Shown here: piece after piece, positions 17,345-32,395 of the stretch
Layout: every line of letters begins with the position of its first letter
How positions within the stretch are numbered: position 1 is the stretch's first letter
Virus record (IMG/VR): IMGVR_UViG_3300048589_000316
Coordinates: 1 to 50,765 of that record
Origin: a virus
Length of the DNA stretch: 50,765 bases
Direction: 5' to 3' (one strand)
Notes under the pieces: generated by a model
What the model was told of the DNA's origin: nothing
Databases searched by the model: none
Seen by the model: the letters and a program-made list of their open reading frames with translations, nothing else
Translations under genes and position numbers: made by a program

Positions 17345-18625
17345 TTACAAGTATCTGTTATGTGTAGAGTTCATGTAATTCAACAACTTGTCGAAAATAG
17401 CATCTTCAAACTCTCTTGATTCATCTACACAACCAGAATCTAAATGCATGGCTTCATGCATGATTACTTTTGCCATTGTAAACTTTCCTTTTTCAAATAA
17501 CTTTCTTGAAAGAAATATCGTTTTTTTCTCTGCTAAACCTAATGTTCTTTCACTATTGAAATCACAAAATACAATTGGGTGATCTATTGGATAATCACAT
17601 GAACTAAGATGATCCAAAATTTCTTCCAAATAATTTATCTGCGAGTCATTTGGCTCAAAAACTCTATACTTTATATATGATCCTGACATATTTTTTAAGG
17701 CGTTGTAAGACTCTCCAAATTGTGCTAATATCTGATTATAAACACTTGATGGCACCAAATAGGTTTTGTTCTTAATATTATTCTCTACCCATCCACCCAA
17801 TTCTATAGGTGCTACAAAATGACCATCCAACACTTTCTTCCAAGTGTCACTGAAAATATGTGTCTCAAACCCAAAACCATCACTTTCAATACTGTTGTTG
17901 TTTACAACTAATCTTAAATACCTTTGAATTATTTCAGGAACATCACACGAACAAAGCAATCTGTAAATAGCATCCCTCAATCCAAGGGAACTTGAATAAA
18001 TCCTAGACTCCGATATTTGAAGGCTATTGAAATTGTAACTAAATAAAAAAGCGCCGACTTCTTCATCAGTCATACATCTTATTCCTTTTCTGTAAACAAT
18101 AGTTTTTTCTGGATCATCAAGATAAATACATCCAGAATTACGTTTGTATGCCCAGGGCTTTTCAACAACAAAATAGTCCTCAATGTTATCGAGAAAATCT
18201 TTCATCGTTTCTGTTCCATTGTCTTTTACAGCAATTGTGGTTACACCTCTTACTAACTCGTATTTTTCGGCTCTATATATCCTTTCACCACCTTCATCGA
18301 TTGCATTTGAGTACAACTCTCTAATTGATTGCCAAAACGTCCACTCTGGACCAGTTTCAGTGGTTATACTTGTCTCCTTACCATTAAAGCAAATAACTTT
18401 AAAAGTTTTCTCTTTAAAAGTTTTCTCAACAGTAGAAATGATAATTTCTTCATGACCTCTAAAGATCCTAACTTTATATCCGTTCCTGATAAGATATGCA
18501 ATCGCATATTTATTTCCAGATCCGAACATACCGATCTTGTTTTTTTCATCCCTTTTTGTGGATGCCCCTAACAAGGTAAATGCTTCAACGTCTACAAGAC
18601 CGTTGTTTTTAATAACTGTGATCAT
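17345..18625 (-). CDS. GHKL-like ATPase joined to an HExxH metallopeptidase domain
   Basis: This 426-residue protein shows two distinct domains. Residues 20-160 look like a GHKL (Hsp90/gyrase/histidine-kinase) ATP site: IGMFGSGNKYAIAYLIRNG (31-49) resembles the Hsp90 GxFGxGxxSA loop, and RELYSNAIDEG (102-112) resembles the N-box with its Mg-binding Asn. The loop precedes the N-box, the reverse of the canonical order, so the fold may be circularly permuted. The C-terminus has HEAMH (390-394) followed by ESREFE (402-407), a zincin site whose third ligand would be one of those Glu. The gene is preceded by the AAACATTTATATT leader. Substrates and role are unknown; an ATP-gated protease is speculation. 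Confidence 0.7.
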   Translation of the reverse strand: MITVIKNNGLVDVEAFTLLGASTKRDEKNKIGMFGSGNKYAIAYLIRNGYKVRIFRGHEEIIISTVEKTFKEKTFKVICFNGKETSITTETGPEWTFWQSIRELYSNAIDEGGERIYRAEKYELVRGVTTIAVKDNGTETMKDFLDNIEDYFVVEKPWAYKRNSGCIYLDDPEKTIVYRKGIRCMTDEEVGAFLFSYNFNSLQISESRIYSSSLGLRDAIYRLLCSCDVPEIIQRYLRLVVNNNSIESDGFGFETHIFSDTWKKVLDGHFVAPIELGGWVENNIKNKTYLVPSSVYNQILAQFGESYNALKNMSGSYIKYRVFEPNDSQINYLEEILDHLSSCDYPIDHPIVFCDFNSERTLGLAEKKTIFLSRKLFEKGKFTMAKVIMHEAMHLDSGCVDESREFEDAIFDKLLNYMNSTHNRYL

Positions 18626-19172: not shown

Positions 19173-19715
19173 TTAATTTTTTTTAAGTCGATCTAAACTA
19201 AACCCTTTTTCCTTTGCCCATTCTGGATTTTCTTCTATTTCTCTATGACCTTCATGTGATACAGGAAGAAACCACCTTACATCTAACCAAAGTGGAATAT
19301 CGTTATCCCTAGCCCAATCATCTGCATATCCTATCTTTCCCATCATATGATGAACTTGGGTTGCAATTGATCCTTTTACCCTACAATACTTGTTTTCTGG
19401 TTTACTAAGAAATTCCTTTCTTAATGTAGAATATTTATTAAGCACTTTGGAGTGTTTCTTTGATTGCTTGTTAATTTTATACGTCTTGCTTTTTGATGCC
19501 TGTTTACCGTCAATCCTATGGCAGTTATTAGAGCAATACGGTTGTGTGCTTAGAAGTGGCCTAAACTCGTTTTCGCATCCTGATCTCCGACATACTTTTA
19601 AACCATCCTTTTGGTTTGCTTCATTATAGCACCTTTGGCTACAGTATGGAACTAATGGATTCTTTTTAATAAATTCCTTTTTGCATTGTGGATTTTTGCA
19701 CTTTGATTTTTTCAT
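19173..19715 (-). CDS. NinG-like zinc-binding/HNH-type recombination protein
   Basis: This 180-residue protein carries two N-terminal zinc knuckles (C6, C11, C25, C29 and C42, C47, C61, C65) of the type C-x4-C...YCS..C, a basic linker, and a C-terminal HNH-like part: VHHMMGK (H122, H123), then VSHEGHREIEENPEWAKEKG (H154, H157). NinG of lambdoid phages combines Cys-rich N-terminus and an HNH-like fold in recombination. The neighbouring NinB-like and RuvC-like genes support the same pathway. Confidence 0.65.
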   Translation of the reverse strand: MKKSKCKNPQCKKEFIKKNPLVPYCSQRCYNEANQKDGLKVCRRSGCENEFRPLLSTQPYCSNNCHRIDGKQASKSKTYKINKQSKKHSKVLNKYSTLRKEFLSKPENKYCRVKGSIATQVHHMMGKIGYADDWARDNDIPLWLDVRWFLPVSHEGHREIEENPEWAKEKGFSLDRLKKN

Positions 19716-27661: not shown

Positions 27662-29608
27662 TTAATAAGTTATCTTCCTTTCAATGTAGCATTCTATAAC
27701 ATCCCCGTTATTAAAGACATCTGCATCTACTCCGGCCCTTGATTCAATATCAGTTGTTATAATTGGGTGCCAATATAGTTTTTTCCTGAAATCAGTTAAA
27801 TCTTCTGTAGCTTGAATGTACATCTTAGATTGCTCTGAATTTTTGATATTAAAAACTTTTTGCTCAACCTTATATCCATGATTAGTCCCCCACATTGATG
27901 CAACATGGGCCAATTCTGCTCTCCTGCCGTCACCAGTGTTAAAGAAAATACCAGATATTACAGCGGTTGAAGGCGATAATGCATCTGTTCCGTCTGCCTC
28001 GCTCATCGTATTTATCGTGTTTTCAATATTTTCATATTGAACCCTATTGAAATAAGGGTAATATCCAGATAACATTGCAGTGTAGCACTTCTGAAATTCA
28101 GTGCCGTCCCTCAATATTAATAATTTATGTCTTGTATTAAGTTGGTTAAATCCACTAATTGACCCACTTAAAATGTGTCTTGTTGATTCTACAAGTGGAG
28201 TTTGAGCAACAACTTCAACACCATCTAATGTACTAGCTGAATCAGCTGCATACATTGTATCCACCCAATTAAATGTAAACTCCCTTGCTAAAATTGTTTC
28301 ACCAACAATATCTGAAGGGCTAAATTCTAAGCCGTCATAAAACCACTTTACATTATCCGTGTTTATACAACCATGTCCAACCCCTACGTGCTCCCCTTCA
28401 TTACTGAAATTGGTCATATTTATCCAATTAAAAGAGCCTTGTATAATTAAATTTCCATTATGTTTAATAGTTGGAGAATACCACGCATCCTCAGAATATG
28501 GAGCTCTTACTGATTTTTCAAAAGCGTGTACTAGATACTCACCACTTTCTGTAAGTGAATGAACCTCAAAGCTAGTTGATGAAATGCCTACTATTTTTAT
28601 AGGTGTTTTTAATGCTGTATTTTCGGGAAGGGCTTCGTTTTTTAGCTTTTGGCTATATGTGACAAAAGAGGTTGCTGAACCACCTTCTTCTAATTGTACA
28701 CTAGCCTTAAACGAGTTTATTTCATCGTCGCTTATACTGGATATAGTTCTAATGTTTACACCTACAAAAGCTGTAAGTGCCGGAGTGGTAAATGTTACAT
28801 TAGCAATACTTCCGCTATAATCTACAGCACTAATAAAAACCTTAGAAGAATTAAAATAAACAATCCTTTTTATTGCCCCTAACGCCCCTAATCCACTTAA
28901 TGTATATTCTGTTGATGCTGAAACAGGCGTATATCCTGACCTTATTGTGTTTACCGATGCTGTTATTACGCCAGTATTTCCAAAATATCCCCTAACTATT
29001 TCACTTGCATCTATAAGGTTTTTTGATGGTTCAAATTGGTTTCTTATTTCCGTATTCCTTTCTTCATGTCCGTCCTTTACCCATGCACTACCTACAACTG
29101 AATAATATCCGTTTTTTGAATCATCAGAATCATTAGATACCTTAGCAGTAGTTCCTGCGCTTGGCATGGGGTCAACAGCATCTAAAGCATCATAATCCTG
29201 GTAAGTTTTAACCCCTTCAAAAGCAATTAAATCAATATCATCTTTTAAATCTTCTGCCGTACCTGTATAAGTACCTTTTTCCAACTTAGCCTCTAAAGCG
29301 GTTGATGAGGCAGACCCTCCTGCCGAATTAAAACCCACATTATTAGCTCCCCACAATTCAATTTCATCAGCACTGGCAAATGGATCTCCATTGGCATCTA
29401 CAAAATCAGTATATGGTCTTCCTAATGCCGGCATAAAGTGCACTGGCTTCCTACTATCCTGCCCATCACCCTGAATAATTTCTATTAATCCATTAACATT
29501 CTTCCAAATCAATATTTTACTGTTCAAATAAGGCTGTGACTCGCCTGTAATTGTATTTGTTATAAAGAACTTCTTGCTTTCTCCTTTGGTTTCTATTTTA
29601 TATGCCAT
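27662..29608 (-). CDS. tail fibre / receptor-binding protein
   Basis: This 648-residue protein has no signal peptide. The N-terminus resembles a short tail-attachment domain. Residues ~100-300 contain the phage-fibre pattern TAKVSNDSDDSKNGYYSVVG (a strand-turn module for particle-bound adhesins), then Thr/Ser/Gly-rich beta repeats. The C-terminal half has aromatic beta-sheet segments (GHGCINTDNVKWFYDGLEFS). It is the last protein of the tail cluster, before the endolysin, where receptor-binding proteins commonly lie. Host range function is inferred. Confidence 0.68.
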   Translation of the reverse strand: MAYKIETKGESKKFFITNTITGESQPYLNSKILIWKNVNGLIEIIQGDGQDSRKPVHFMPALGRPYTDFVDANGDPFASADEIELWGANNVGFNSAGGSASSTALEAKLEKGTYTGTAEDLKDDIDLIAFEGVKTYQDYDALDAVDPMPSAGTTAKVSNDSDDSKNGYYSVVGSAWVKDGHEERNTEIRNQFEPSKNLIDASEIVRGYFGNTGVITASVNTIRSGYTPVSASTEYTLSGLGALGAIKRIVYFNSSKVFISAVDYSGSIANVTFTTPALTAFVGVNIRTISSISDDEINSFKASVQLEEGGSATSFVTYSQKLKNEALPENTALKTPIKIVGISSTSFEVHSLTESGEYLVHAFEKSVRAPYSEDAWYSPTIKHNGNLIIQGSFNWINMTNFSNEGEHVGVGHGCINTDNVKWFYDGLEFSPSDIVGETILAREFTFNWVDTMYAADSASTLDGVEVVAQTPLVESTRHILSGSISGFNQLNTRHKLLILRDGTEFQKCYTAMLSGYYPYFNRVQYENIENTINTMSEADGTDALSPSTAVISGIFFNTGDGRRAELAHVASMWGTNHGYKVEQKVFNIKNSEQSKMYIQATEDLTDFRKKLYWHPIITTDIESRAGVDADVFNNGDVIECYIERKITY

Positions 29609-30427: not shown

Positions 30428-32395
30428 TTAAAATCCTGTTCTAATTAATTTCTTTTTGGTGCGCTTGCTTTGGTTGGTAGAATAACCTTCATTTCCTTCT
30501 ACTGGTAATACTGTTATTTCTGCACTATCCGTAAAGCCACCATCTGTTGTGGTAAATGTTACCAATGGCAATTCTTTTATTGCAACGTTGTCTATGGTAA
30601 TGTCCGTTACCCCATATCGCTTTATCATTAAAAAAGTATTGCCCGTGGTTGCTGTGAACTTAATAGTGTTCATTCCTACATCCTCCGTTAGAATATCCCT
30701 TAAGTCCAAATTGTCAGAAGATAAAAACCCTCCATTATAGCTTGTAATCTCATAGGTAAGTACATATGTTTTGCCTACGGTTAATACATCGTTTTGCTGT
30801 ATGTAGCTGAATATGTTTGTGGGTGAGTAAATACGGGCCACACCTCCTGAAATTGTGCTTTCTCCGTGTATAGTCCAATTTGCAGCACTTGAAAAATCAC
30901 CGTCCGTTACTTCATCTGGGGAATCCGATACTCCTGTAACATTTCCACTACTGTCAACCGTTGCCAGTCCAGTATTTGAACTGCTCCAAGTCCCTGTCTG
31001 GTCAAGAGCTGTAATAGGTGATACCGTCTTTACTAAGGCCATTGTTTCCCCTACTTCCAATGTTAATGTACTTGGTTCTACTCCTACACCATCCACATCA
31101 TTACCAGGTCCTTGACTTGTATCATTTCCATCTCCTGCCATATAATGCAGAAATTCCTCTAAATTTGTATAACCATCACCATCATCATCCCCATTCTCGT
31201 ATTCATCCAAATCGCCCCATCTGGCATTCTCCCAATCATCGCCCATACCATCACCATCATCATCAACATAAGGCGTTCCGCTTGTTATTGTTGGAAACCC
31301 TCCTACCGAAGATGGGGAACTTATTATATTTCCTCCACCTGATGAATAATACCCAATATTACGGGTGTCAATAGAATCTGGCCATAGATTAGCTCCTACA
31401 TTAGTTAATATAGAATCCAATCCTACCGACGAAATAGGCGTATATGGACTATCTGTATTTATTCTCGAACCGTTGCTGTAAGTTGTCCAATCACCATTCT
31501 TTAATCCATAACCATCAATGATTGTATTATCAGACTCCCAAGTAGAACCGTCTGATGCTGTTGAGCTTCCATTGTAACAAGAATTTCCGCTTGTCTGGTA
31601 TCTTAAAGCCTGTCCTGTGGCAGCAACATTGCTTCCGTTCTTATATATATTTCCTATCACATCCGCATAACTCCCATAAGCTACCTCTGTGCCTCTTATA
31701 TAATTATAAATAACATTGTTGACTACTTCAAATTCAATTCCACAAGTGGAAGGATGAAATTGCCTATCAGCATTGTTGGATAAATAGTTCTTTATAAATG
31801 AAACGTTAGCTATATTGTTCATCATAAGAAATGCCCGACTGCTTCCCATTGCTTCCGCAATAAGACAATTTTGAATTGTAACATTTCTAACTGAACTTCC
31901 TGATGCAATAGGATTAATGCTCATGTTCTCATCTTCTGCCCAACTTATCGAACAATGGTCGATAATCACATTAGAAATCTGATAGGCTGAATAAGCAACT
32001 ATATTAATACCGTCTTGATTCTCAATTGTTCCATCATGCCTAACCCTTATGTGTCGTATGATAACCTGACTTGTACGTATTGAAATTCCATAATTTCTTA
32101 TTGAAATGCCGCCGGGACTTGTTTCTCCAGCAATGGTAATATTAGGATTTGATATGATTAATGGTGAAGTAAGGTCTATGTATCCTGCTACCCTAAATAT
32201 GATTGTTCTTGCGCCATTAGATTCTATTGCAGCTCTAAGACTTCCACTTCCACTATTATTCAAATTTGTAACAAAAATAACATCACCACCTCTACCTCCT
32301 ACGGCATTTTGTCCAAAACCCACTGCACTAGGGAAAGATATTTGAGAAGTGCCTAAAAACCCGAACAGAAACAATATGTAAATTAATTTTTTCAT
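30428..32395 (-). CDS. exported pectate-lyase-like beta-helix protein with Ca-binding and Ig-like domains
   Basis: This 655-residue multidomain protein starts with a signal peptide (MKKLIYILFLFGFLGTS) and continues with a right-handed beta-helix of the polysaccharide lyase 1 type (residues 25-350: GGRGGDVIFVTNLNNSGSGS, then ISNPNITIAGETSPGG and NVIIDHCSISWAED). Calcium-type repeats DDDGDGMGDDWE (~377) and GDDDGDGYTN (~400) follow. Next comes a bacterial Ig-like (Big_2) domain starting VEPSTLTLEVGE (~438) and a beta-rich carbohydrate-binding-like region. It may degrade capsule or extracellular pectin-type polymer. A signal peptide is unexpected for a virion fibre. Confidence 0.8.
   Translation of the reverse strand: MKKLIYILFLFGFLGTSQISFPSAVGFGQNAVGGRGGDVIFVTNLNNSGSGSLRAAIESNGARTIIFRVAGYIDLTSPLIISNPNITIAGETSPGGISIRNYGISIRTSQVIIRHIRVRHDGTIENQDGINIVAYSAYQISNVIIDHCSISWAEDENMSINPIASGSSVRNVTIQNCLIAEAMGSSRAFLMMNNIANVSFIKNYLSNNADRQFHPSTCGIEFEVVNNVIYNYIRGTEVAYGSYADVIGNIYKNGSNVAATGQALRYQTSGNSCYNGSSTASDGSTWESDNTIIDGYGLKNGDWTTYSNGSRINTDSPYTPISSVGLDSILTNVGANLWPDSIDTRNIGYYSSGGGNIISSPSSVGGFPTITSGTPYVDDDGDGMGDDWENARWGDLDEYENGDDDGDGYTNLEEFLHYMAGDGNDTSQGPGNDVDGVGVEPSTLTLEVGETMALVKTVSPITALDQTGTWSSSNTGLATVDSSGNVTGVSDSPDEVTDGDFSSAANWTIHGESTISGGVARIYSPTNIFSYIQQNDVLTVGKTYVLTYEITSYNGGFLSSDNLDLRDILTEDVGMNTIKFTATTGNTFLMIKRYGVTDITIDNVAIKELPLVTFTTTDGGFTDSAEITVLPVEGNEGYSTNQSKRTKKKLIRTGF

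Follow-up and report, generated by a model that had tools for sequence, protein, structure and literature searches.

The window analysed here is the whole of a virus record of 50,765 bases. At positions 17345..18625 it carries, on the minus strand, a gene for a 426-residue protein; the interval is open on that strand only (18625 to 17345). The product almost certainly combines a rearranged GHKL ATPase, followed by a transducer-like region, with a C-terminal domain derived from the zincins. It is a member of phrog_8203, which it matches over nearly its full length (residues 4-421, E=5e-65). This phage family, present in cultured phages, has no assigned function and includes gp29 of Pseudomonas phage YuA. 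A second match, to phrog_6077 (E=1e-14), has its best stretch confined to residues 5-83. In Pfam, a SprT-like signal over residues 363-420 stays below threshold (12.9 versus 25.6 bits), and no HATPase model reaches threshold with this protein. A first-pass annotation had read a glycine-rich loop, an N-box and a metallopeptidase motif in the translation, and all three are found where it had placed them, as K30-IGMFGSGNKYA-41, R102-ELYSNAIDEGG and H390-EAMH-394.

The rearranged family is widespread among phages and common to dozens of them. In a tblastn search, 63 records of cultured or metagenomic phages give matches that span 80% or more of the length and share 24-28% identity; they include YuA gp29 and proteins of Bordetella phage CN2 and Stenotrophomonas phage Bhz59. 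About 40 further records match little beyond residues 2-59 of the window protein, and these N-terminal-only matches correspond to GHKL proteins of canonical order. Homologues from IMG/VR and from bacterial genomes were gathered in two alignments, one of 77 rearranged sequences plus the window protein (78 rows), the other of 25 canonical-order proteins. Conservation was counted over 73 non-redundant rearranged members, except for T129 and the pairing of residues 390 and 407, counted over all 78. Among the 25 canonical proteins, Pfam recognises HATPase_c_3 in eight and SprT-like in four. The canonical protein of Vibrio phage 1.175.O also exceeds the HATPase_c_3 cut-off. One member of the canonical set matches the Pfam MazE_antitoxin model, and two canonical-order proteins with a HELTH motif (L124 and L125) have an extra C-terminal segment, with tails that are AbrB/MazE-like in look.

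The elements of the ATP site can be followed along the window protein in the order D-box, G2, N-box and T. Residues 2-59 (18449..18622, minus strand) comprise a D-box-like strand, N7-x-G9, the glycine-rich G2 loop and a helix. Residues 84-113 (18287..18376, minus strand) hold the first strand of the canonical domain, here displaced, together with the N-box helix bearing R102, E103, N107 and D110. The last ATPase strand lies at residues 128-134 (18224..18244, minus strand). Twelve positions are invariant in the 73 non-redundant members (K24, G32, G35, G37, Y40, R102, E103, N107, D110, E111, E206 and R208), and T129, the threonine of the last strand, is found in 78 of 78. The ExxxN signature of the N-box is thus present in every member, on a helix predicted at residues 97-111, as is the GxxGxG signature of the G2 loop, whose homologous segment Pfam HATPase_c_3 recognises in the Vibrio phage 1.175.O protein. 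The DxGxG signature of the D-box is absent: position 7 is Asn in 67 of the 73 members and Ser or Thr in the others. The canonical relatives of Escherichia phage W70, Vibrio phage 1.175.O and PAKlein3 likewise lack the D-box Asp. Judged from the alignment, the residue set of the ATP site is retained apart from this Asp.

Canonical GHKL proteins show the order N-box, D-box, G2, T. The three canonical relatives just cited open with the N-box helix, which reads REL.QNA.D and has a conserved Trp ahead of it; the segment that is N-terminal in the window protein comes after it. Profile comparison with hhalign recovers this swap as two matches, window residues 2-59 with canonical residues 49-106 (E=1.6e-14) and window residues 84-113 with canonical residues 5-34 (E=9e-9). 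When the window domain was rotated at any tested point within residues 61-93, the two fused into a single collinear match of E about 1e-20; with rotation at most other points they stayed separate. The full-length profiles of the rearranged and canonical families match at E=5e-27 and are collinear over residues 2-398, the N-box unit alone being displaced. The transducer-like region at residues 160-250 (17876..18148, minus strand), which contains the invariant E206 and R208, is also collinear with the canonical clade (residues 114-300 against canonical 107-330, E=1.2e-13).

Predicted structures display the same arrangement. In the AlphaFold model of the canonical protein L118 (pLDDT 91.0), strand 2-9, the N-box helix 18-36 and strand 40-44 are followed by strand 50-54, the G2 helix 84-94 and strands 98-102, 106-115, 121-130 and 137-142. 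The window model (pLDDT 90.5) begins with strand 2-9, equivalent to canonical 50-54, and continues with the G2 helix 37-47 and strands 51-56, 63-70 and 73-80. The moved unit comes next (strand 83-88, helix 97-111, strand 115-119), then the last strand 128-134, equivalent to canonical 137-142. In Foldseek, the canonical model finds Hsp90/HtpG/TRAP1 (E=2e-11), as well as MORC2 and MutL; the window model reaches Hsp90 at 6e-5 only, in a program that cannot follow permutations. Its best match in the BFVD viral library is an uncharacterised phage protein (E=1.7e-23). The proposed assignment to the GHKL ATPases is borne out by the predicted Bergerat-type elements, by the profiles and Hsp90-like matches of the canonical relatives and by the invariant ATP-site residues.

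On the evidence of profiles and models, a β1-αN(N-box)-β2 unit has left the N-terminus and now sits immediately ahead of the last ATPase strand. The reversal of motif order noticed at first reading is therefore real and evolutionary, as swapped profile matches, models and phylogeny all indicate, and the circular permutation suggested to explain it is refined to a more limited move. Both the last strand with T129 and the transducer-like region stand where canonical proteins have them, everything downstream of that strand being collinear with those proteins, so that only the β1-αN-β2 unit has moved and the domain as a whole has not been rotated. The sequence KDNG (134-137) was also considered as the D-box of a canonical protein devoid of glycine loop. 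This was rejected because these residues are an insertion that occurs only in the window protein and its near copy, and the strand found there corresponds to the canonical last strand. In a tree of 64 rearranged and 24 canonical proteins, motif order changes on one branch, of support 100; on this phylogeny, the rearrangement arose once, from canonical GHKL ATPases. No duplication intermediate with two N-boxes was present among the fetched open reading frames.

Residues 349-422 (17360..17581, minus strand) form a predicted zincin-like domain of the minigluzincin/SprT type. Foldseek aligns the window model with selecase (4qhi) and proabylysin (4jiu) at a probability of 1.00 and with HtpX at 0.92; the profile match to 4jiu is weak (E=0.37). 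The domain is homologous to the C-terminal domain of seven canonical proteins that carry HExxH (L118, L119, L122 and L124 to L127; hhalign E=3.4e-10). The HEAMH motif of the window protein (residues 390-394, 17444..17458, minus strand) is included in a helix predicted at 381-397. At position 390, 66 of the 73 rearranged members have Glu and the window protein alone has His, whereas E391 is kept in 68, H394 in 69 and D401 is highly conserved. The Glu residues noticed downstream of the motif are E402, E405 and E407, the last of which (17405..17407, minus strand) is replaced by Gln in most relatives. H390 and E407 occur together only in the window protein and its 97% identical copy among the 78 aligned sequences, the common state being E390 with Q407. 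This paired change hints that the two residues lie near each other, in a possible third-ligand region; the candidate third ligands are D401, E402 and E407, where the canonical clade has a His nearby. Since the window protein is nested within the EExxH group on the tree (99*), its HExxH would most simply be a secondary gain. Four rearranged members (L077, L079, L084 and L093) have lost the metal motif, reading IGxxH, IAxxH or IAxxQ. Four others, that of Brevundimonas phage MaInes (L010), L141, L142 and L144, showed no ExxH motif towards the C-terminal end, and their zincin-like domain appears to be missing or shortened.

Two readings of this domain may be envisaged. In the first, it would be a pseudo-peptidase that merely binds a partner, the ATPase governing assembly. 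Such an ATP-switched binding module deserves to be taken seriously, if not as the favoured outcome. It would agree with the prevalence of EExxH and Gln407 and with the members whose C-termini are fully degenerate or devoid of the domain. However, it would leave the strong conservation of E391, H394 and D401 to be accounted for, and the joint presence of HExxH and E407 in the window is hard to reconcile with a dead site in this lineage. In the second, that of the first-pass annotation, an active zinc protease gated by ATP would cut a host or phage protein. The HEAMH helix in a minigluzincin-like fold and the HExxH of canonical relatives are in its favour. Against it, His390 is unique to the window lineage and the third metal ligand is represented by candidate positions only; we hold this version to be rather doubtful. 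The metallopeptidase-like assignment is upheld for the predicted fold. The HExxH motif is present in the window protein but is not a trait of the family, because the permuted members nearly all have EExxH and Q407. The window protein itself might be an ATP-regulated protease.

In the window, the gene follows those of an HNH-type protein, a Holliday junction resolvase, DnaB, a DnaD-like loader and exonuclease VIII. The neighbours of its relatives are mostly devoted to DNA metabolism (exonuclease VIII/RecE, RecT/Erf, DnaB, polynucleotide kinase, methyltransferase, HNH), with some structural genes. Relatives in bacterial genomes have repressors and Erf/RecT nearby, which points to prophages. No partner gene was strictly conserved beside family members among the neighbours compared. 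The HNH-type protein (19173-19715, minus strand, 180 residues; phrog_7108, E=4e-28) has a Cys-rich N-terminus and possibly a NinG-like look, and phrog_7108 is also found near the gene in one relative (L018). Elsewhere on the minus strand of the window, a 655-residue protein (30428-32395) combines a pectate-lyase-like part (phrog_27797, E=1e-45) with an Ig-like domain and might be a depolymerising virion protein, and a 648-residue protein (27662-29608) has no PHROG match at E<=0.001.

In MutL, MORC and Hsp90, the N-terminal domains form a dimer once ATP is bound. By extension from this established GHKL biology, ATP binding would bring together the N-terminal domains of two window proteins, the conserved Glu103 would activate hydrolysis, and the transducer-like region, through E206 and R208, would relay the change to the zincin-derived domain. 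The protein would then clamp on DNA or nucleoprotein and bind DNA-bound proteins, which the HExxH-bearing window member would perhaps cleave. Such a substrate is suggested by the early replication/recombination neighbourhood together with the SprT/Wss1-like fold. Wss1/Spartan proteins are minigluzincin-like, and Wss1, a protease that DNA activates, processes DNA-protein crosslinks (PMC4559962). Altogether, our best guess, with a probability of about 0.5, is a dimer clamp driven by ATP that works on DNA or nucleoprotein and bears a C-terminal domain derived from a peptidase. Taken on its own, the nucleotide-driven clamp is rather probable by analogy; action on DNA-bound proteins, argued from fold, context and the analogy with SprT and Wss1, is much more tentative. 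Weighing against this explanation are the replacement of the D-box Asp by Asn or by Ser/Thr, owing to which affinity for ATP is not assured; the absence of the first zinc-binding His from most relatives; and the lack of a strictly conserved neighbour. It may also be imagined, with due reserve, that a rewired Bergerat ATPase and a re-tuned metal centre, where Glu/His with Gln or Asp replace an ancestral His-rich site, define a new class of ATP-driven phage enzymes working on nucleoprotein, the window lineage having regained HExxH and a Glu.

The main rival to the clamp is a counter-defence or exclusion factor of the T4 RIIA kind (PMC7824862), in which the GHKL ATPase, fitted with a variable C-terminal domain, would block a host or prophage defence and the zincin-like tail would pick the target. 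RIIA proteins are phage-borne and also have an N-terminal GHKL domain, but in canonical order and with an unrelated C-terminus. Full-length similarity to the window protein is lacking; the matches are weak (phrog_612, E=0.019, residues 15-44 only; RIIA proteins in BFVD, E about 1e-3). The RIIA annotation of some canonical relatives and the broad, patchy phage distribution speak for such a role, whereas the neighbours belong to recombination and replication and not to a known anti-defence set, and no rIIB occurs among the neighbour families listed. PADLOC gives no match below an E of about 0.005 for either the window protein or YuA gp29. We regard this explanation as unlikely. Membership of a known defence family was also rejected, the PADLOC matches being weak (AbiEi, E=0.009, for the window protein; DrmB, 0.005, for YuA gp29). 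The canonical protein of Vibrio phage 1.175.O matches PADLOC TmtA at E about 2e-6, over the GHKL segment only. Finally, that the motifs arose by chance in an unrelated protein, as the want of any Pfam match above threshold might suggest, is excluded for practical purposes by conservation, profiles and structure.

Compared with known systems, the phrog_8203 relatives, Yuavirus proteins among them, resemble the window protein over their full length and in their rearranged order, differing by EExxH. The canonical phage proteins (phrog_6077, Escherichia phage W70, Vibrio phage 1.175.O and IMG/VR L118-L127) have a homologous ATPase and transducer and, in a basal subset, the HExxH domain, but an N-terminal N-box. 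Hsp90/HtpG, MORC and MutL have the ATP-site residue set and Bergerat-type elements predicted here in common with the window protein, in another order, with Asp where it has Asn and with a different C-terminus. Minigluzincins and SprT/Wss1 resemble its last 75 residues or so, HExxH helix included, without the GHKL fusion or the loss of the first His seen in most relatives. The first-pass annotation had proposed an undescribed system. As a family, it is a known PHROG of cultured phages; for a permuted GHKL/Bergerat/HATPase domain, no prior description was found in the open-access literature searched.

To our knowledge, GHKL ATPases are taken to have an invariable motif order, on which profile tools depend. 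Rearranged members are missed as a result, and the window protein, for which no Pfam HATPase model reaches threshold, is a case in point. Being natural, ancient and widely retained, the rearrangement probes which connections of the Bergerat fold a protein can do without, and it opens a way to GHKL proteins that have stayed hidden. Joined as it is to a zincin-derived domain whose metal ligand has changed repeatedly, the ATPase could be tested as part of an ATP-gated peptidase or pseudo-peptidase in well-studied laboratory phages such as YuA and M6.
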